A stretch of 33,427 nucleotides of DNA. Source: Rhodoluna sp. (GTDB lineage: Bacteria; Actinomycetota; Actinomycetes; Actinomycetales; Microbacteriaceae). The notes under the pieces are model-generated. The model was not told the DNA's origin, did not search any database, and saw nothing but the letters and a program-made list of their open reading frames with translations. The DNA is taken from the NCBI GenBank assembly GCA_030832605.1, contig JAURIU010000008.1, forward strand, positions 1 through 33,427, read 5' to 3'. The translations under genes were made by a program, and so were the position numbers. The first letter of the stretch is position 1, and every line of letters starts with the position of its first letter. Positions 17,194 through 26,948 of this stretch are shown piece by piece.

Positions 17194-17751
17194 TTACTTC
17201 TTAGCAGCTGGCTTCTTAGCGGCTGGCTTTGCAGCGGCTGGCTTTGCAGCGGCCTTCGGAGCAGTCTTAGCAACTGGCTTCTTAGCAGCTGGCTTTGCGG
17301 CGGCCTTCGGAGCAGTCTTAGCAACTGGCTTCTTAGCAACTGGCTTCTTAGCAACTGGCTTTGCAGCGGCCTTCGGAGCAGTCTTAGCCACTGGCTTCTT
17401 AGCAGCTGGCTTTGCAGCGGCCTTCGGAGCAGTCTTAGCAACTGGCTTCTTAGCTGTCGCCTTCATAGCGCCTTCGATCACGTCTTCAGCAGCGTCTACT
17501 GCTTTAGCTGCAGCGGCCTTGGTTGCCTTGGTTGCAGTCTTTACGGCTGCACCGGCTTTCTTCTCGACGTCTTTGGCGACGCGTCCGGCCTCTTTGCCAG
17601 CCTTCTTGGCAGCAACTTCAGCTTTCGCCTTTACCTCTTCGAACACTTCAGCGCTCTCTTTGGCAATGTCGGCGGCTAGTTCGGTGGTTGCCTTGGCAAT
17701 GCCAGGGGCGTTCTTCTTGAAGACCTTTTTAACGCGGTCAAAAATGCTCAC
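17194..17751 (-). CDS. Histone H1-like Lys/Ala/Pro-rich protein
   Basis: 185 aa; helical Lys/Ala/Glu N-terminus and C-terminal tandem KKPVAKTAPKAAAKPAA repeats; GTG start with AGGAG SD. Confidence 0.85.
   Translation of the reverse strand: MSIFDRVKKVFKKNAPGIAKATTELAADIAKESAEVFEEVKAKAEVAAKKAGKEAGRVAKDVEKKAGAAVKTATKATKAAAAKAVDAAEDVIEGAMKATAKKPVAKTAPKAAAKPAAKKPVAKTAPKAAAKPVAKKPVAKKPVAKTAPKAAAKPAAKKPVAKTAPKAAAKPAAAKPAAKKPAAKK
17197..17451 (-). repeat. Intragenic tandem repeat, 51-bp (17-aa) unit, about 4 copies plus partial units
   Basis: KKPVAKTAPKAAAKPAA x4, with one extra 15-bp KKPVA insertion after copy 2 and a degenerate AKPAAKKPAAKK end. Confidence 0.9.
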
Positions 17752-18555: not shown

Positions 18556-19194
18556 CTAGGCATTTGGCTCGGTGTGTTTAGATTTAGCTTCAAATGGGTA
18601 GGCGATTGTCGGCACTCTCCCTCGAAGCCACCGGTTTAAAACGCCGCCGTCTACCTCTTCGCGAGTCAGGGCAAAGACGTAGTGGTCCCGCCAATCACCA
18701 TTGATGTGAATGTAGCGTTCCTTCAACCCCTCGAAGCGGAACCCCAACTTTTGCACAACTCGCAGGCTCGCTACATTTTCAGGGCGAATAGCGATCTCGA
18801 CTCGATGCAAACCAACTTGGTTGAACAAATAGTCGGTTACCAAAGCCACAGCAGTTGGCGCGACTCCGCGACCAGCGACAGCAGGTGAAACCCAGTAGCC
18901 GATCACGGCATTCGATACCGAGCCGTACAGCACGTTCGCAACGTTGAGCTGGCCGGCAATCTCGCCGTCAACCTCGATGATGAACGGGAAACCCCAACCA
19001 TCATCGGCTTGCCTCAGTAACCCTCGAACCATCGCTTTGATGTCAAAGCTCTGTGGTGCGTTGGGCAGCGTTGCTTCCCAGGGCCGAAGCCAACCTCGAT
19101 TTCCAAGAATTAATCGCTCGAGCGCTTTGACATCGCGCATTTTCACGAAGCGCAGGCGAACCGCGTCGTGAGTGAGAGTAAAATTCATGGCCAC
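18556..19194 (-). CDS. GNAT family N-acetyltransferase (RimJ/RimL-like)
   Basis: VRLRFVKMRDVKALERLI, GYWVSPAVAGRGVAPTAVALVTDYLFNQVGLHRVEIAIRPENVASLRVVQKLGFRFEG. Start GTG 19194 or ATG 19188. Confidence 0.92.
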   Translation of the reverse strand: MAMNFTLTHDAVRLRFVKMRDVKALERLILGNRGWLRPWEATLPNAPQSFDIKAMVRGLLRQADDGWGFPFIIEVDGEIAGQLNVANVLYGSVSNAVIGYWVSPAVAGRGVAPTAVALVTDYLFNQVGLHRVEIAIRPENVASLRVVQKLGFRFEGLKERYIHINGDWRDHYVFALTREEVDGGVLNRWLRGRVPTIAYPFEAKSKHTEPNA

Positions 19195-19212
19195 GATGGC
19201 AAGATTAGTCGC

Positions 19213-19776
19213 ATGACCGATTCAGAAGCCACACAAGCAAAGACTGCTCTGCGCAGCAAAATTCGAGCCGCGCGCAAATCGAAGCAAGAAGGTCACTTTT
19301 GTGAAGACGAGCACGATGAACATTTGGTCATGTTTCTGGCCGACCAAAACGTTCGCAAGATTGCGGCCTACATTGCGCTGGATGATGAACCTTGCACAGA
19401 TTTGCTATTGGATGTTTGCGAACAGGTTGGCATTCAGGTTTTGGTGCCCCGAGTTGTGAAAGACGATCTTGAGTGGGCGATTTTCAACTGGGATGAACTA
19501 TCCGAGGGTGAGTTCGGAATTCTCGAGCCAACCGGGCCGGCTGAACCTCTTCAAGTTGATGCAGTCTTGGTGCCAGCATTGGCAGTGGATGCCGCTGGTA
19601 ACAGGCTTGGCAAGGGTCGCGGCTTCTACGACCGAGCGCTGGCGGAACTAGAGAGCCGAGTGCCAATCATTGCGCTGGTACACGACGAAGAAGTGTTTGA
19701 AGAGATTCCTCACGAGGCCCACGATCTCAAAGTTGACTACGTGGCCTGCTGCTCGGGTGTTCACAAACTCGACTGA
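19213..19776 (+). CDS. 5-formyltetrahydrofolate cyclo-ligase
   Basis: LVPALAVDAAGNRLGKGRGFYDRAL signature; ATG at 19213. Confidence 0.92.
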   Translation: MTDSEATQAKTALRSKIRAARKSKQEGHFCEDEHDEHLVMFLADQNVRKIAAYIALDDEPCTDLLLDVCEQVGIQVLVPRVVKDDLEWAIFNWDELSEGEFGILEPTGPAEPLQVDAVLVPALAVDAAGNRLGKGRGFYDRALAELESRVPIIALVHDEEVFEEIPHEAHDLKVDYVACCSGVHKLD

Positions 19777-19823: not shown

Positions 19824-20021
19824 TTGCCAACTTATTCTTATGCCTGCAAAAAGTGTGGGCACGGGTTTGACGTTCAGCAATCGATTACCGATTCGGCTTT
19901 GACAGAGTGCCCTAAATGTGCGGGCGACTTGAGAAAAGTTTTTGGCAATGTGGGCGTCACGTTTAAGGGCCCAGGCTTTTATAAAACCGATTCTGCAAAA
20001 CCTTCGTCGAGTTCTGAATAG
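19824..20021 (+). CDS. FmdB family zinc-ribbon protein
   Basis: MPTYSYACKKCGHGFDVQQSITDSALTECPKCAGDLRKVFGNVGVTFKGPGFYKTD; TTG start with GGAG SD. Confidence 0.93.
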   Translation: MPTYSYACKKCGHGFDVQQSITDSALTECPKCAGDLRKVFGNVGVTFKGPGFYKTDSAKPSSSSE

Positions 20022-20023
20022 CT

Positions 20024-23000
20024 CTAGCCCCAGTGCGGCGGTTTGTCGTTCTTGAGCCTTGAATCGTTGGATTCGGATCGATCTCCCCAAGCCTCATCTG
20101 ACTCATCGAAAGCGGGCACATCGAACAGCGCTTGTGGGCGTTTGGTGAGCTGCATGCCTAAAGATTCGCCGATTCGAATCGCTAGGGCTTCTGGGTCTGC
20201 GAAGAGTTCGAAGGTGTGAACCCGAACCACTCGCCACCCCATTGCCCTGAGTAAGGCTGGGCGAAGCCTGATGCGCTCTGAAATCGAATCACCAGCCAAA
20301 TTCCAGTCTGGCAAAACAGCTACGGCTTTGTTGGCAAAGCTCACCGCTAGAGGTATCTGGCCTCCTAGATTCAACTCAACGCGTGCCCCGAGTTTGGCGA
20401 GTCTCAATGACAAATCTTGCAGTAACGGATCTTCATCAGACTCTTCACCTGGCGACAACTTGGAACCGTCCAAAACCTCAGCTAGAAGATTGTTGATGTT
20501 TAGCGGGCCACCCTGTTGCAGCTTTTCAGAGCCGAAGCAACTCACTACCGTGATGCTGCTCCGAGCGCTTACCAGCAGGTTAGCCAAGTGCCGTCGGCTA
20601 GCCGGGCCGCGGAGTTCCCCGATTACCTCCGGAGCTCGACCTTCGCCATCGGAGCCGAACCCGATCGAAAAAATCACACGGTCGGCAACTCGGTGCGATA
20701 GCGATGCCACCGATGTGACCTCGAATTTTTCGCGTCCGTGTGAGTCAAAGAATTCTTCGAGTTCAGCCTTCGCCTTCAGCGCTATCCGCAGCGCCTGGTC
20801 AATGCGGTCGGCATGCAACTTGGATGCTGTCGCAACCAACAGCGAATCTTCGGGTTGCTCTGCAGCGTGCTTAAGCACGAGTGCAATCACCCGATCTACT
20901 TCGGCATCTGGGCTTTCTACGGCACTGGTTCCCTTGGTGCTGGACCCGATTCCCGAAGTGATGATCTCGATCAATAGGTTTGGGTTGCCCAAGAACTCTG
21001 CGGCGGTTGGTGCAAACAAAATGCGATTCTGATAGAACTCTCGATTGATTAAAGTTCCCAGCGCCTGACCATTTGGTCGCCATGATTTCTTCAACACCAC
21101 AAGATCATGACCAGAACCGACGGCCGACTGCACCGATGGCACATCGCGTTCACGTTTTAACGAAAACTCATGGCACTCTACTTCGAAGCCGTCAGGTGCT
21201 GCAATGGCCTCATCGCCAAACGATATAACCTGATCGACTCGTTGCAGCGTTGCAAGATTTTCGGCAACCGTTGTGCCGGCGGCATCCAAGATTAGGGCGA
21301 CATCGAATCGATCTTCAGTGAGTTCACGGCTGACCGTGTAAGGCGATGTCATAACCACGGGTACGAGCTGGCCATAGATGTCTGGAGCGGCCGCTTTGAG
21401 TGCCTTATAGGTTGCCTGCTTGGTACGCAACAATGCTTTCAAGTTTGTGGCCTGCTCTGTGTGTTCAGCGAGAGCGTTATGCCATTTTAACGAGAGCTCG
21501 TGAACCAAGCGCAATCGGGACTCAATGTTCACGTTATTGTCAGACGCCGCAAAATCCTCTTCAATCGAATCAATTTGCTCTGCGGTGTACTTCATGACCG
21601 TCGCATCGCGTGCAACCAAGTATTCGAGTGCAGACTGCCACCAAGCGAGGTCAAGCTCTGCAGCAAGATGTTCGCGCTTCACCTTGAGATTCGCTAAGTC
21701 ACGCGCGAGGGCCGAGATTCCTTGCTCACGCAATTCTTCACGCAGAGTGTTTCTTGCCTCAAGGTTTTCGAGAGGTTCTCGATCTGAAGCCATCGATGAA
21801 AGAGATTTTGCGAGCTCAGTCAGTGGCATTTTCAACAGTGGCTTGGCCGAGGCATCATCATCAACATGAGACTGAAGTGAACCGAGGTCGGTCACGAAGT
21901 TTTGATATGCAATCAGTGCCTCGTTGATACCCAGAGGAACCTCGGGTTTGTTCTCATTGAGCGAGTATTGCTGCCAAGCCTGTCGCTGGTCATTTGCCGC
22001 AATGAGAGCGCCGTGAAGATCTCCAACGCTCATGCCGGGTCGAATGTATTCTTTGGCAAGTTTCTTGAGGCGACGACGACTCGAGCCCGACAGTTCAGAC
22101 TTCGCGGTTCTCGGGCCGGTTGCCGTGATGAGTTCGTCAAGTGGCCGCTCAAAAACTTCTGGCACAAAGCGCGCGAGCGATTCTCGCACGCCTACGAATA
22201 GCCTGAGGTACAAACCCCAGTCTTCGACCGTGGCAGCAGATTTGAAGTGAGACTTGCGAATGAAGGAGTCGAGCTGGTTGGTGAGTTCCGGCAAAACGCT
22301 TTTTTCGAGACGACTTGCCAGCTCAAGAGCTTCATCGACTTGATCTTGAGTCTCAAATTTCGCCTGAAACCAAGCAGTGTCAGAGGCTGCAAAATTAAAC
22401 TCGCCCAGATCGTGAGCCTGGTAAAGAAGTTCAAGTGCCCGAGCTCTGTGAGACTCATCGAGCAAATACTGCGGTTTGATACGAGCGCTGGTCTGCGGCG
22501 CTCTAGCCATGAGGCTAAGTTTTGCCAGCGCTACCAGGCTCTCTGAAACAGAAAGGCCAACCTTTTCGTCTCGCTTGGCTAGCAGGTCGAGATACGCGCT
22601 CACGTTTGACTCGGCCGTTGCGCGAGCTTCTAGCGCAGCATCCAAGTTCGAAGCGGCGGCTTTCTCGTTGCGGCTGATTGCTGCGATGACATCGAACCAG
22701 GTGGACTCCGACCGAACAGCAAGGCCGCCAAGCCCAAGGCTTGCGAATCGGTCAGCGAGCTCACTCAAAGTTTGGCGACGTGGGGCCACGACCAGAACTC
22801 GCTTGTTGGCCGCAACCAATCCAGCAATCGTGTTGACGACCGTTTGGGTGTAGCCGCAGCCAGGCAGGGTTTCGACCGCGAAACTGTCTCCAGCTACGGC
22901 ACGCGCCACCACCGTTCGCTGATGAATGTCGGCATCGGTAATGAGGAGCGGGTCACTCGCGCCCGCACCGATATCAACGGTTTGCCGGTCGGTTTCTAAC

Positions 23001-23671
23001 CCAGCCAAGGCGCGAAGTAACGGTGTTTCGTTTTGCTTTACGTCAGCGTGCAACTCGATTGACTCAGCCGCATAGGTTCCCACAGCGAGAATTCGACGGG
23101 TCTCAAGATTCGCCGTCGGACCGGCAAGATTCGCCAAGTATTCGAGCACCGAAATCGGCAGCAAATCTGCACCGGCAGCAAGCAGCGACAGCAGATGGGC
23201 TTCATCAACCTTCGCGCCATAGCTGACTTCTAAGGCCTCGACCAGACCGGGGTTAACTCTCGGATGCTCGCCAAGTCGCAACTCGAAATCATCCGTCTTG
23301 CGATCGAGGTTCAAAGGCCAAATCAATATCGGTAGCGCTAGGTCAAAGCCATCGTGTTCAAGATTGACGAGCCCCCCAACCAGGCCGAGACATTTGATAC
23401 CAAACTGCGAATCTAGAATCTCGGCGCGCTGTTTGATGCGTTTGGCCGCCGAGTAGGCTCGCGAAAAAGCCAAAGGGTCTCGAAAAAGGTTAGAGAGAAC
23501 TCCGGTGCGAGCCGCTGCCAACTGTGCCAAACCGCCAGGATGCGCGCGCTCGAGATCGATTTGCCCAACGTTGTTTGGCTCAAAGTTTAGAAGTGCGTTT
23601 GTAAATCCAATTTCTCTAATTTCGCGCAGCCAAACATTCCAGTCGATGCGGCCAGAACCATTGGAATCCAT
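20024..23671 (-). CDS. DUF4011-type SF1 helicase / REase-like (MTES_1575-type) protein, catalytically degenerate-looking
   Basis: N-terminal DUF4011-like block (LLNFEPNNVGQIDLERAHPGG...LSNLF...FGIKCLGLVGGLVNL...PILIWPL); P-loop position reads LPGCGYTQTVVN; Walker B position FDVALILDAAGTT; C-terminal LRAMGWRVVRVHTFELFADP resembles Vsr/MTES_1575-type endonuclease ends. Confidence 0.8.
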   Translation of the reverse strand: MDSNGSGRIDWNVWLREIREIGFTNALLNFEPNNVGQIDLERAHPGGLAQLAAARTGVLSNLFRDPLAFSRAYSAAKRIKQRAEILDSQFGIKCLGLVGGLVNLEHDGFDLALPILIWPLNLDRKTDDFELRLGEHPRVNPGLVEALEVSYGAKVDEAHLLSLLAAGADLLPISVLEYLANLAGPTANLETRRILAVGTYAAESIELHADVKQNETPLLRALAGLETDRQTVDIGAGASDPLLITDADIHQRTVVARAVAGDSFAVETLPGCGYTQTVVNTIAGLVAANKRVLVVAPRRQTLSELADRFASLGLGGLAVRSESTWFDVIAAISRNEKAAASNLDAALEARATAESNVSAYLDLLAKRDEKVGLSVSESLVALAKLSLMARAPQTSARIKPQYLLDESHRARALELLYQAHDLGEFNFAASDTAWFQAKFETQDQVDEALELASRLEKSVLPELTNQLDSFIRKSHFKSAATVEDWGLYLRLFVGVRESLARFVPEVFERPLDELITATGPRTAKSELSGSSRRRLKKLAKEYIRPGMSVGDLHGALIAANDQRQAWQQYSLNENKPEVPLGINEALIAYQNFVTDLGSLQSHVDDDASAKPLLKMPLTELAKSLSSMASDREPLENLEARNTLREELREQGISALARDLANLKVKREHLAAELDLAWWQSALEYLVARDATVMKYTAEQIDSIEEDFAASDNNVNIESRLRLVHELSLKWHNALAEHTEQATNLKALLRTKQATYKALKAAAPDIYGQLVPVVMTSPYTVSRELTEDRFDVALILDAAGTTVAENLATLQRVDQVISFGDEAIAAPDGFEVECHEFSLKRERDVPSVQSAVGSGHDLVVLKKSWRPNGQALGTLINREFYQNRILFAPTAAEFLGNPNLLIEIITSGIGSSTKGTSAVESPDAEVDRVIALVLKHAAEQPEDSLLVATASKLHADRIDQALRIALKAKAELEEFFDSHGREKFEVTSVASLSHRVADRVIFSIGFGSDGEGRAPEVIGELRGPASRRHLANLLVSARSSITVVSCFGSEKLQQGGPLNINNLLAEVLDGSKLSPGEESDEDPLLQDLSLRLAKLGARVELNLGGQIPLAVSFANKAVAVLPDWNLAGDSISERIRLRPALLRAMGWRVVRVHTFELFADPEALAIRIGESLGMQLTKRPQALFDVPAFDESDEAWGDRSESNDSRLKNDKPPHWG

Positions 23672-24312: not shown

Positions 24313-24816
24313 TTAGGCGGCTTGAGCAAAGTTCAGAAACTCGTCCCACTCCGGTTCAAATCGCTCGGCTCCGCGCACGGTCCAGGCAATTCCCTGAGGC
24401 ATCCGAGGTTGATGACGAAGTTCCCAGCCAAGTTCTGCAAGAGTCTTGTCGCTCTTCGCGTTGTTGCACTTCAGGCAACAGGCCACTAGGTTTTCCCAGG
24501 TATCTTTGCCGCCTCGCGACCTAGGTTGAACGTGATCAATGGTGTTGGCTGACTTTTGACAGTAAGCGCACCTGAAGCCGTCTCGACGCAGCACTCCCCT
24601 GCGCGATACCGGAACCTTTCGGGTTGTCGGCACGCGCACGTAGCGCTGCAACAAGATCACTGATGGAAGTGTGAAATCTTTGGTGGCACTGTGAACCTGT
24701 AGGTCACCAGCTCCGGCGAGAACGGTGGCCTTTTGGTTCAGAACCAAAATCAGTGCACGTTTAAACGACACCACTGCGAGTGGCTCGTAACCGGCGTTTA
24801 AAACAAGTGTTCGCAC
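24313..24816 (-). CDS. HNH endonuclease
   Basis: RRDGFRCAYCQKSANTIDHVQPRSRGGKDTWENLVACCLKCNNAKSDKTLAELGW; GTG start. Confidence 0.93.
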   Translation of the reverse strand: MRTLVLNAGYEPLAVVSFKRALILVLNQKATVLAGAGDLQVHSATKDFTLPSVILLQRYVRVPTTRKVPVSRRGVLRRDGFRCAYCQKSANTIDHVQPRSRGGKDTWENLVACCLKCNNAKSDKTLAELGWELRHQPRMPQGIAWTVRGAERFEPEWDEFLNFAQAA

Positions 24817-25124: not shown

Positions 25125-26042
25125 TTAGCCGTCTATGCCCAAGCGCACAAAATAGTGCTTTGGAGTGAAAATCGGAGCCAGCTTCACCTTGTCGCCGCGA
25201 AGCGGTGCGTGATAGAACATTCCGTTACCCGCGTAGATGCCGTCGTGGCTGTGATCGTTCATGATTACGAGGTCGCCCGGTAGAGCATCCTCTGGGTTGA
25301 TGATTTTACCCATGCGGGCCTGGCCGTTCACCGAGTGCGGCAGTGCGATACCGAACTGCGAGAAGACGAATTTCACATAGCCCGAGCAGTCAAAACCAGC
25401 CGGGGTTTCTCCACCGAAGACGTAAGGAACACCAACGTACTTGGCAGCAACCTGCATCACCTTTTCGGTGTTGTAAGTCGGGAAAGGAGGGTTGAGTAAG
25501 TAGTCTTCGGCAGTCGGGCCAGCGTAGTCGCGGTAGGCGGTAATGGTTTGCTGACGGAATAGTTCTTCGGCTGAAATGTCTTTGGCAGTGCCTCGCTTGT
25601 AGTTCTGCAAACCGATCTGAGTCACGGTTAGGCCCTGTGTTTCGGCATCCGCCGCTAGCAGGCTAGGGTCTAGCGAACCGACACCAGCAAAAGCAGCCAG
25701 TTCGGGACTCATGGCATAAGCGGGCAAGGCTGAAGTTGCCATCATGCCTGAGAAAACCAACATGGTCAGGTAGCCGCGAACCGGCTTTAGCCTGGCGGTC
25801 AAAGTCGTGCGCACTGCGGGAACAATGAAGCTGGCTCCAGTCAAGGCATCTTGAGTGACAGCAACAACTGCGGGAGCGTTTTTGGCAGCCAAACGAGCGG
25901 CTCTGCGATCGGCGCGACGAATCGAGCGTTCTTGCTTAGCAAGCAATGAAGCTTCGACCGAACTACGACTGCGCAACTCAAACTGCTCGAAGACGTTAAT
26001 CTTCACGTTTGCGCGTCTGCGACCACCGGGCTTTTGGGCCAA
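25125..26042 (-). CDS. NlpC/P60 family peptidoglycan endopeptidase
   Basis: YVGVPYVFGGETPAGFDCSGYVKFVFSQFGIALPHS...GDLVIMNDHSHDGIYAGNGMFYHAP (Cys/His/His). ORF track starts at ATG 26096 (no SD); TTG 26042 has GGAGG 6 nt upstream. Confidence 0.92.
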   Translation of the reverse strand: MAQKPGGRRRANVKINVFEQFELRSRSSVEASLLAKQERSIRRADRRAARLAAKNAPAVVAVTQDALTGASFIVPAVRTTLTARLKPVRGYLTMLVFSGMMATSALPAYAMSPELAAFAGVGSLDPSLLAADAETQGLTVTQIGLQNYKRGTAKDISAEELFRQQTITAYRDYAGPTAEDYLLNPPFPTYNTEKVMQVAAKYVGVPYVFGGETPAGFDCSGYVKFVFSQFGIALPHSVNGQARMGKIINPEDALPGDLVIMNDHSHDGIYAGNGMFYHAPLRGDKVKLAPIFTPKHYFVRLGIDG

Positions 26043-26105
26043 GGCAAACCTCCAAGTTTCAGTAACTCTTCGAGCCACTCTCGTATCGAAACTCATCGTT
26101 TAGAA

Positions 26106-26249: not shown

Positions 26250-26948
26250 TTAGCTGGCTGACTCCACAAACAAATGTGCAGCTAGGTCGTGGTCAAGGGC
26301 CAACCCGGCGTCTTGGCCGTCGAGCGATACAAATATTCGGCCATCAATGTGGTCGGCGCTAATGGTTGCGCCAGGAACAAGGCCGATGGCCTTTAGCTCG
26401 CTGAGAAACTCTGGGTCGATCTGAATCGGCTCACCGATTCTGCGCAAAATCAAACCGGATGCACGACCTGCGTTTGCGAGCACCGTTGGCAGCGACACCA
26501 CGCCGTCGACAAAAAGCGGGTTCGGTGAAAAACCGAGTTCTTCGAGCCCAGGAATCGGATTTCCGTATGGGGATATATCTGGCGAAGAAATCAGACCAAT
26601 GATTTTGCGCTCGACCTGCTCACTCATCACGTGTTCCCATCGGCAGGCTTCTTCGTGAACAAACTCCCACTCGAGACCGATAACGTCGGCAAGCAACCGC
26701 TCAGCCAAGCGATGCTTTCGCATAACCCGCACGGCTTCAAGCCTCCCCTTCTCGGTGAGATCGAGGTGGCGGTCATCGGCGATTGTCACAAGCCCGTCAC
26801 GAGACATTCGGTTTACGGTCTCAGAAACGGTGGGGCCAGAGTGACCGAGGCGTTCAGAGATTCGAGCTCGAAGCGCAACCTGACCCTCTTCTTCGAGTTC
26901 GAGAATGGTGCGCAGATACATTTCTGTTGTGTCAATCAAGTCAGTCAC
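26250..26948 (-). CDS. DtxR/IdeR/MntR-family metal-dependent transcriptional regulator
   Basis: DTTEMYLRTILELEEEG, RISERLGHSGPTVSETVNRMSRDGLV HTH, HRLAERLLADVIGLEWEFVHEEACRWEHVMSEQVERKI metal/dimer domain, FeoA-like C-terminus; GTG with GGAGG. Confidence 0.93.
   Translation of the reverse strand: MTDLIDTTEMYLRTILELEEEGQVALRARISERLGHSGPTVSETVNRMSRDGLVTIADDRHLDLTEKGRLEAVRVMRKHRLAERLLADVIGLEWEFVHEEACRWEHVMSEQVERKIIGLISSPDISPYGNPIPGLEELGFSPNPLFVDGVVSLPTVLANAGRASGLILRRIGEPIQIDPEFLSELKAIGLVPGATISADHIDGRIFVSLDGQDAGLALDHDLAAHLFVESAS

Follow-up and report, generated by a model that had tools for sequence, protein, structure and literature searches.

The 33,427-nucleotide contig of Rhodoluna sp. that was analysed in full (the window; source genome 1.22 Mb, 77% complete) carries on its minus strand, at 20024..23671, a core gene for a 1215-residue protein that appears to be a pseudo-helicase-nuclease. 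The protein consists of a DUF4011-like N-terminal domain, a Upf1-like superfamily 1 (SF1) helicase core with a helical insert of ~430 residues, and a C-terminal domain with a restriction endonuclease (REase) fold of the MTES_1575/Vsr type. A preliminary description of this DNA had reported an intact 3.6-kb open reading frame (ORF) with degenerate motifs, and this was borne out: the ORF starts with ATG and runs in one unbroken frame with zero internal stops. Because contigs from two independent metagenome-assembled genomes carry the same gene (L057, 96% identical; L058, 90%), an assembly error is ruled out.

Pfam searches of the protein returned AAA_11 and MTES_1575 (PF18741) matches only, both below threshold (15.3 bits for MTES_1575 against a cut-off of 38.2). 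The DUF4011-like N-terminus proposed in the preliminary description lies below Pfam detection in the protein itself (PF13195; cut-off 22.2 bits) but was recovered above the cut-off in an ortholog of the same family, L041 (23.1 bits), and in L076 (33.6 bits), a syntenic ortholog with canonical motifs; alignment to these two places the domain at about residues 14-146 (23234..23632, minus strand). L076 exceeded the curated cut-offs for DUF4011, AAA_11, AAA_12 and MTES_1575 (72.5 bits for the last; another ortholog, L128, scored 51.7), and this fixes the ancestry. Homology to Hhe-type anti-phage proteins, also claimed at the outset, was clear for three models: the window protein scored 195 bits with PADLOC PDC-S37, 166.3 with NCBIfam ProA (NF058533; cut-off 1500) and 75.7 with NCBIfam Hhe (NF042953; cut-off 2000). 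The corresponding scores of L076 were 823, 803.8 (also below 1500) and 547 bits. By its defining features the protein is neither Hhe, ProA nor an MTES_1575 nuclease; it is a descendant of such a protein and, judged by sequence, a divergent descendant of MTES_1575-type REase proteins.

The motif sequences quoted in the preliminary description were found where it had placed them when coordinates were rechecked, all on the minus strand. Walker A reads LPGCGYTQTVVN (residues 269-280, 22832..22867), with Tyr in place of the Lys found in the GPPGTGKSQTIAN of canonical orthologs. Walker B, FDVALILDAAGTT (residues 789-801, 21269..21307), had been described as departing from DEAS/DEAQ; it does, with Asp-Glu changed to Leu-Asp, and the ungapped alignment to canonical orthologs refines the claim, DEASQ becoming L-D-A-A-G, so that the Mg2+-binding Asp is gone and an Asp now stands at the catalytic-Glu position. 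Motif III, ISFGDEAIAAP (residues 816-826, 21194..21226), keeps Gly-Asp and has lost Gln. The motif IV region, KSWRPNG (21068..21088), includes Arg865, a residue shared by canonical orthologs and by those family orthologs that were checked. Motif V, SLSHRVADRVIFS (20666..20704), has lost the QGDERD signature and keeps D997, and motif VI, LLVSARSS (residues 1032-1039, 20555..20578), has lost the TRAR that most family members outside the genus keep. The window protein thus lacks the residue set of an active SF1 helicase (GK(T/S), DE, motif III Gln, motif V QG.E and motif VI Arg). Between motifs Ia and II lies a large, mostly helical and confidently modelled insert (residues ~331-760, 21392..22681), which contains a conserved basic stretch, SRRRLKKLAKEYIRPG.

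The nuclease domain is similarly altered and lacks the catalytic D ... E-x-D of the MTES_1575 REase. Its beta-2 strand, QIPLAVSF (residues 1105-1112, 20336..20359), is without the catalytic Asp of IDLAV, and the beta-3 strand, AVLPDW (residues 1118-1123, 20303..20320), has Leu for the Glu of E-x-D-G and keeps the Asp; the conserved tail MGWRVVRVHTFELFADP follows at residues 1144-1160 (20192..20242).

To place these changes in a wider context, motif retention was counted in 123 orthologs of the protein's own family, f1. None of the 123 keeps the Lys of Walker A, the Asp or the Glu of Walker B, or the Gln of motif III. The Lys position held G, Y, A, S, V and one Arg, never Lys; at Walker B the ungapped alignment showed Asp replaced by Val or Leu and Glu by Asp, the latter in 122/123. 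The Q, G and E of motif V were retained in 0.8, 4 and 0%, and the nuclease beta-2 Asp in 0.8%. The preliminary description had counted both the nuclease D and ExD/ExK as lost. The beta-2 Asp is indeed gone and the Glu of E-x-D is lost variably within the genus (74% of the family orthologs keep it), but 123/123 orthologs keep the second Asp, D1122, despite the losses at the other two positions. In the P-loop, Pro, Gly, Gln and Asn were kept in 122-123 of the orthologs. Over the seven columns of the nucleoside triphosphate (NTP) site mean retention was 0.007, against 0.62 for the 257 other columns invariant in canonical orthologs (at most one exception among them), and retention fell below 10% in 7/7 NTP-site columns versus 59/257 others (Fisher p = 5e-5). 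The loss was therefore aimed at the NTP site, and the remainder was retained. In motif Ia, Arg308 is invariant and Arg299 largely so; also retained are the GD of motif III, Arg865 of motif IV and D997 of motif V.

Orthologs with all canonical motifs intact (GPPGTGKSQTIAN, FDVVIFDEASQ, GDERQLPPT, QGDERD, TRAR, IDLAV and E-x-DG) were found in family f5 and the majority of f18, and also in L134 and L135, two proteins of other orders. Every other sampled family has lost these motifs, and differently in each: f1 reads LPG[TC]G[GYAS]TQT with [VL]DA[GA], f6 PPGTGQTQT, f7 PPGTGATQ and f12 PPGTDPID. Most of the P-loop is gone in f9, f14 and f3; in f9, f14, f20 and f4 it is lost altogether, yet the protein is kept. 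The canonical set is also lost in an f5 fragment (L228) and in three f18 members, L088, L105 and L223, lineages without the Walker Lys inside a mostly canonical family, with P-loops listed as PPGTGAGRL, PPGTGASQT and PPGTGIARL; these are more recent cases and useful for dating the loss. Syntenic orthologs in f5 and most of f18 keep every canonical motif; the dead form therefore descends from an active protein of the DUF4011 type, a Upf1-like helicase with a nuclease of the Vsr type (MTES_1575). In f36, a family of another order (L127-L132, L136-L138), the gene stands mostly beside fmdB, Lys is replaced by Arg (GRTQT) and Walker B reads EDAGR. This Lys-to-Arg change is of the same kind as in the PriA pseudohelicase of Deinococcus radiodurans.

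In the gene tree, families were almost entirely clades, and an approximately unbiased (AU) test rejected a single clade of all canonical sequences (p = 0.0009). With the tree rooted on L134/L135, the Walker Lys was lost at least four times if it was never regained. Among pairs whose dS could be measured, the ratio of nonsynonymous to synonymous substitution rates (dN/dS; Nei-Gojobori, custom script, saturated pairs excluded) was 0.018-0.133 for the family and 0.20 for f36. Values well below 1 alongside lost catalytic residues are the feature of a pseudoenzyme under selection. Within the genus, conservation places the degenerate Walker A window in the top 1-1.5% of the protein's windows; Tyr occupies the Lys position in 29/29 members, Asp796 is invariant, and the signatures G.GY.Q and DA(A/S)(G) are invariant or nearly so. 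At the sequence level, this pattern reads as remodelling under constraint rather than decay. Orthologs carrying GKT and DE had been named beforehand as evidence against the scaffold reading, a sign of lineage decay, and that objection holds in part, since such orthologs do exist at the same locus in f5 and f18. The inactive state is not recent decay, however, because it is ancient, present in all 123 family orthologs and strongly conserved; order-wide presence, dN/dS of 0.02-0.13 and the conserved degenerate P-loop rule out a recent, lineage-specific decay.

AlphaFold, given 90 orthologs, modelled residues 7-1200 with a mean predicted local distance difference test score (pLDDT) of 91.4 and a predicted template modelling score (pTM) of 0.82. 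A phmmer search with the single 1215-residue sequence found no match in the PDB, and a profile was used instead. The leading Foldseek matches in the PDB were Setx-RNA, Upf1-RNA, Ighmbp2-RNA, Sen1, Aquarius and Dna2 (probability 1.00 to Setx, Upf1 and Ighmbp2; TMt 0.42-0.57), and the profile search agreed. The predicted structure thus has the fold of a Upf1-like SF1 helicase. The invariant signatures, the purifying dN/dS and the intact predicted fold together support the suggestion of the preliminary description that the protein is a retained, non-catalytic scaffold under selection.

The preliminary description had considered too small a scale, as the gene is a family- and order-wide core gene. 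Matches were found in 58/60 genomes of the genus, with zero internal stops in those listed; in 198/200 genomes of the family (178/179 of good quality; 85/85 genera); and in 292/297 genomes of the order (278/280 of good quality). Family f1 is probably Microbacteriaceae, and the order probably Actinomycetales in the sense of GTDB. Class-wide, full-length matches outside the order were mainly confined to f36. The gene is kept in small genomes of 0.9 Mb (f1/g15) and 0.8 Mb (f4/g117). Among plasmids, no record covered 80% of the protein, the best match (27% identical) lying on a 415-kb replicon of Actinomyces oris with the same synteny; the phage collection held no close copy and one weak match. 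The lack of a close plasmid or phage copy and the shared locus rule out a mobile defence gene, and the loci are positional orthologs of one gene inherited vertically.

In the window the gene is convergent with an fmdB-like zinc-ribbon gene (19824..20021, plus strand), which is conserved at this place across many families and is followed in the locus by a 5-formyltetrahydrofolate cyclo-ligase (5-FCL) gene (19168..19776, plus strand). The fmdB stop faces that of the helicase-like gene with 2 bases between them (20021-20024), leaving no space for a terminator. On the upstream side, all on the minus strand, are an HNH endonuclease gene (24313..24816), a conserved neighbour in several family members, and genes for an NlpC/P60 (C40) peptidase (25125..26096) and a DtxR-type regulator (26250..26948), both syntenic as far as A. 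oris. In most loci with flanks the gene is convergent with fmdB, often followed by the cyclo-ligase and a RimJ-type acetyltransferase; on its other side many loci have the NlpC/P60 peptidase, the DtxR regulator and SerC. The fmdB neighbourhood extends to f36 and to the canonical genes of f5 and f18. The commonest neighbours, fmdB, mscL and 5-FCL, give no functional clue, and the HNH, NlpC and DtxR genes adjoin only part of the loci, which excludes a constant neighbour as functional partner; automatic neighbour clusters include spurious antisense ORFs. The annotated order in A. oris is DtxR, C40 peptidase, universal stress protein, 'DNA helicase', mscL, SAF, 5-FCL, glp and GNAT. This 'DNA helicase' (L177 4480-8793; PGE45_RS12785, WP_271289505.1), which by sequence identity falls with f3 (66% to L158), bears its name though its P-loop reads PPGSDVAGT, its Walker B LDAST, and motifs V and VI are degenerate. 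The 415-kb 'plasmid' with this core locus may be part of the chromosome or a chromid.

We favour, with a probability of roughly 70%, the reading that the protein is an ancient, vertically inherited pseudo-helicase-nuclease, non-catalytic and probably with a nucleic-acid-binding housekeeping role. Its pseudoenzyme status is well supported at the level of sequence. We infer that it has no capacity for ATP hydrolysis, unwinding or cleavage, and its predicted fold and ancestry suggest that it binds nucleic acid. The ancestor would have been an active DUF4011-type protein, kin of Hhe and ProA/PDC-S37, in which a Upf1-like SF1 helicase was joined to a nuclease of the MTES_1575/Vsr type; its gene became a fixed chromosomal core gene beside fmdB/mscL. 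In most families of the order, f1 among them, the residues that bind and hydrolyse ATP then disappeared together with the nuclease beta-2 Asp, and the whole fold, the full length and strong sequence constraint were retained. With the motif Ia Arg, the motif III GD, Arg865 and D997 kept and the ATP side lost, the protein is most simply read as an NTP-independent nucleic-acid clamp or scaffold that would neither move nor cut and may recruit or position partners in chromosome or RNA maintenance. The PriA pseudohelicase of D. radiodurans is an experimental precedent for such a mode of action. More tentatively, a defence-type helicase-nuclease may have been domesticated as an essential or near-essential, order-wide housekeeping factor, its activities lost at least four times independently, with the scaffold representing a previously undescribed NTP-independent clamp. 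Several observations weigh against an inactive protein of this history. The family still has the P-loop glycines, the Thr that follows the Lys position (113/123) and an Asp in place of the catalytic Glu (122/123), so the unusual site could bind or slowly hydrolyse NTP. The motif VI TRAR and the nuclease E-x-D persist in most of the family outside the genus, and the tree was built from divergent sequences (about 20-35% identity between families), its deep order being uncertain.

The main rival, owing to the protein's relatives, is that it still serves in immunity against phage, as a sensor or guard that recognises foreign or damaged nucleic acid without hydrolysing NTP and signals to another nuclease such as the neighbouring HNH protein. 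We consider this unlikely. Homology to the Hhe, ProA and PDC-S37 models and the HNH gene adjoining it in several family members are in its favour, and because a core DUF4011 gene flanks a defence hotspot in every Pseudomonas aeruginosa isolate (PMC10250203), core status alone leaves an immune link possible. Unlike patchy defence genes, however, this one is nearly universal, has a fixed locus and persists in genomes of 0.8-0.9 Mb. Its protein also scores far too low for NCBIfam, with 166 bits where 1500 are required and 76 where 2000 are, and the flanking genes are housekeeping genes; universality, locus and minimal genomes speak for a housekeeping role. Less probable again is a remodelled rather than dead NTPase site, in which the P-loop and the Asp at the Walker-B Glu position would bind ATP, GTP or an alarmone and act as a ligand switch that lacks rapid turnover. 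Such a switch would fit the near-invariant P-loop Pro, Gly, Gln and Asn, the Asp itself and the high conservation of the P-loop window, but not the variety of residues at the Lys position, the loss of motif III Gln and motif V QG.E, or the four families that keep the protein without any P-loop.

Neutral decay of a former helicase heading to loss is very improbable and was refuted as a general explanation. In its favour, canonical orthologs are known from other families, and erosion of motif VI and of the nuclease Glu has gone further in the streamlined genus than among its family relatives; against this stand the low dN/dS, intact frames in essentially all genomes, the degenerate signature fixed across the family and the confident predicted fold. 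A variant concerning origin alone is compatible with the favoured pseudo-helicase-nuclease: the canonical f5 and f18 genes may be later horizontal replacements in place, the order's ancestor having already been inactive. That canonical sequences occur in few families and group in the tree near f34/f41 proteins from other orders is consistent with such a replacement, which is nonetheless doubtful, as f5 and f18 sit at the same fmdB locus, so that a full in-place replacement is needed, and the inactive f36, with fmdB, is nested there too. The variant would leave the pseudoenzyme claim for the window protein unchanged.

Among known systems, Hhe (NF042953; PADLOC Hhe) has the same order of DUF4011, SF1 helicase and Vsr-type nuclease, with homology over the helicase core and the C-terminus. 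The window protein differs in its missing catalytic motifs (the intact helicase Walker A/B of Hhe is absent, 0/123 family orthologs keeping Lys or Asp-Glu), its length (~1215 vs ~1800 residues), its fixed core locus and a score far below 2000. ProA/PDC-S37 are the best-scoring models for both the window protein and L076; the window protein is set apart from ProA/PDC-S37 by a score below the ProA cut-off of 1500 bits, inactive motifs and housekeeping synteny. The HEPN-helicase-Vsr giant proteins (PMC3710099) and MTES_1575, itself >2100 residues with a predicted conflict-system role, share the C-terminal REase_MTES_1575 (PF18741) on an SF1 helicase, but the window protein has no HEPN, transglutaminase or winged helix-turn-helix fusion. 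Upf1, Ighmbp2, Setx and Dna2 (SF1B) resemble it in fold and partly in sequence; they are active eukaryotic enzymes without DUF4011 or MTES_1575 domains. PriA is a superfamily 2 helicase. The D. radiodurans PriA pseudohelicase likewise combines a helicase fold with lost Walker motifs, including a replaced Walker A Lys, and is kept across its lineage; it shows no ATPase or unwinding activity and binds DNA and DnaB (PMC4504706). PriA differs in belonging to an unrelated helicase superfamily, in its known primosome role and in having no nuclease domain. The P. aeruginosa core DUF4011 gene flanking cDHS1 (PMC10250203) belongs to another phylum and is likened here by core status and fixed locus. In the papers searched on DUF4011, MTES_1575, Hhe, ProA, pseudohelicases and inactive helicases, this order-wide pseudoenzyme was not described.

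A 1200-residue protein present in about 98% of the order's genomes, down to 0.8-0.9 Mb, is likely to be important, and it may connect a core cellular role with the anti-phage helicase-nucleases. At a single locus, different families carry canonical or inactivated orthologs, and the losses recurred, which makes an unusual natural experiment on a scaffold without its engine. The 'DNA helicase' of A. oris, its residues gone, also warns against transferring annotation by fold or family alone. Elsewhere in the window, a minus-strand gene at 17194-17751 encodes a 185-residue Lys/Ala/Pro-rich protein with AAKPAAKKPVAKTAPK-type repeats that resembles a histone-H1-like DNA-binding tail, and tandem repeats with periods of 51, 66 and 117 bp lie within it at 17197-17454.

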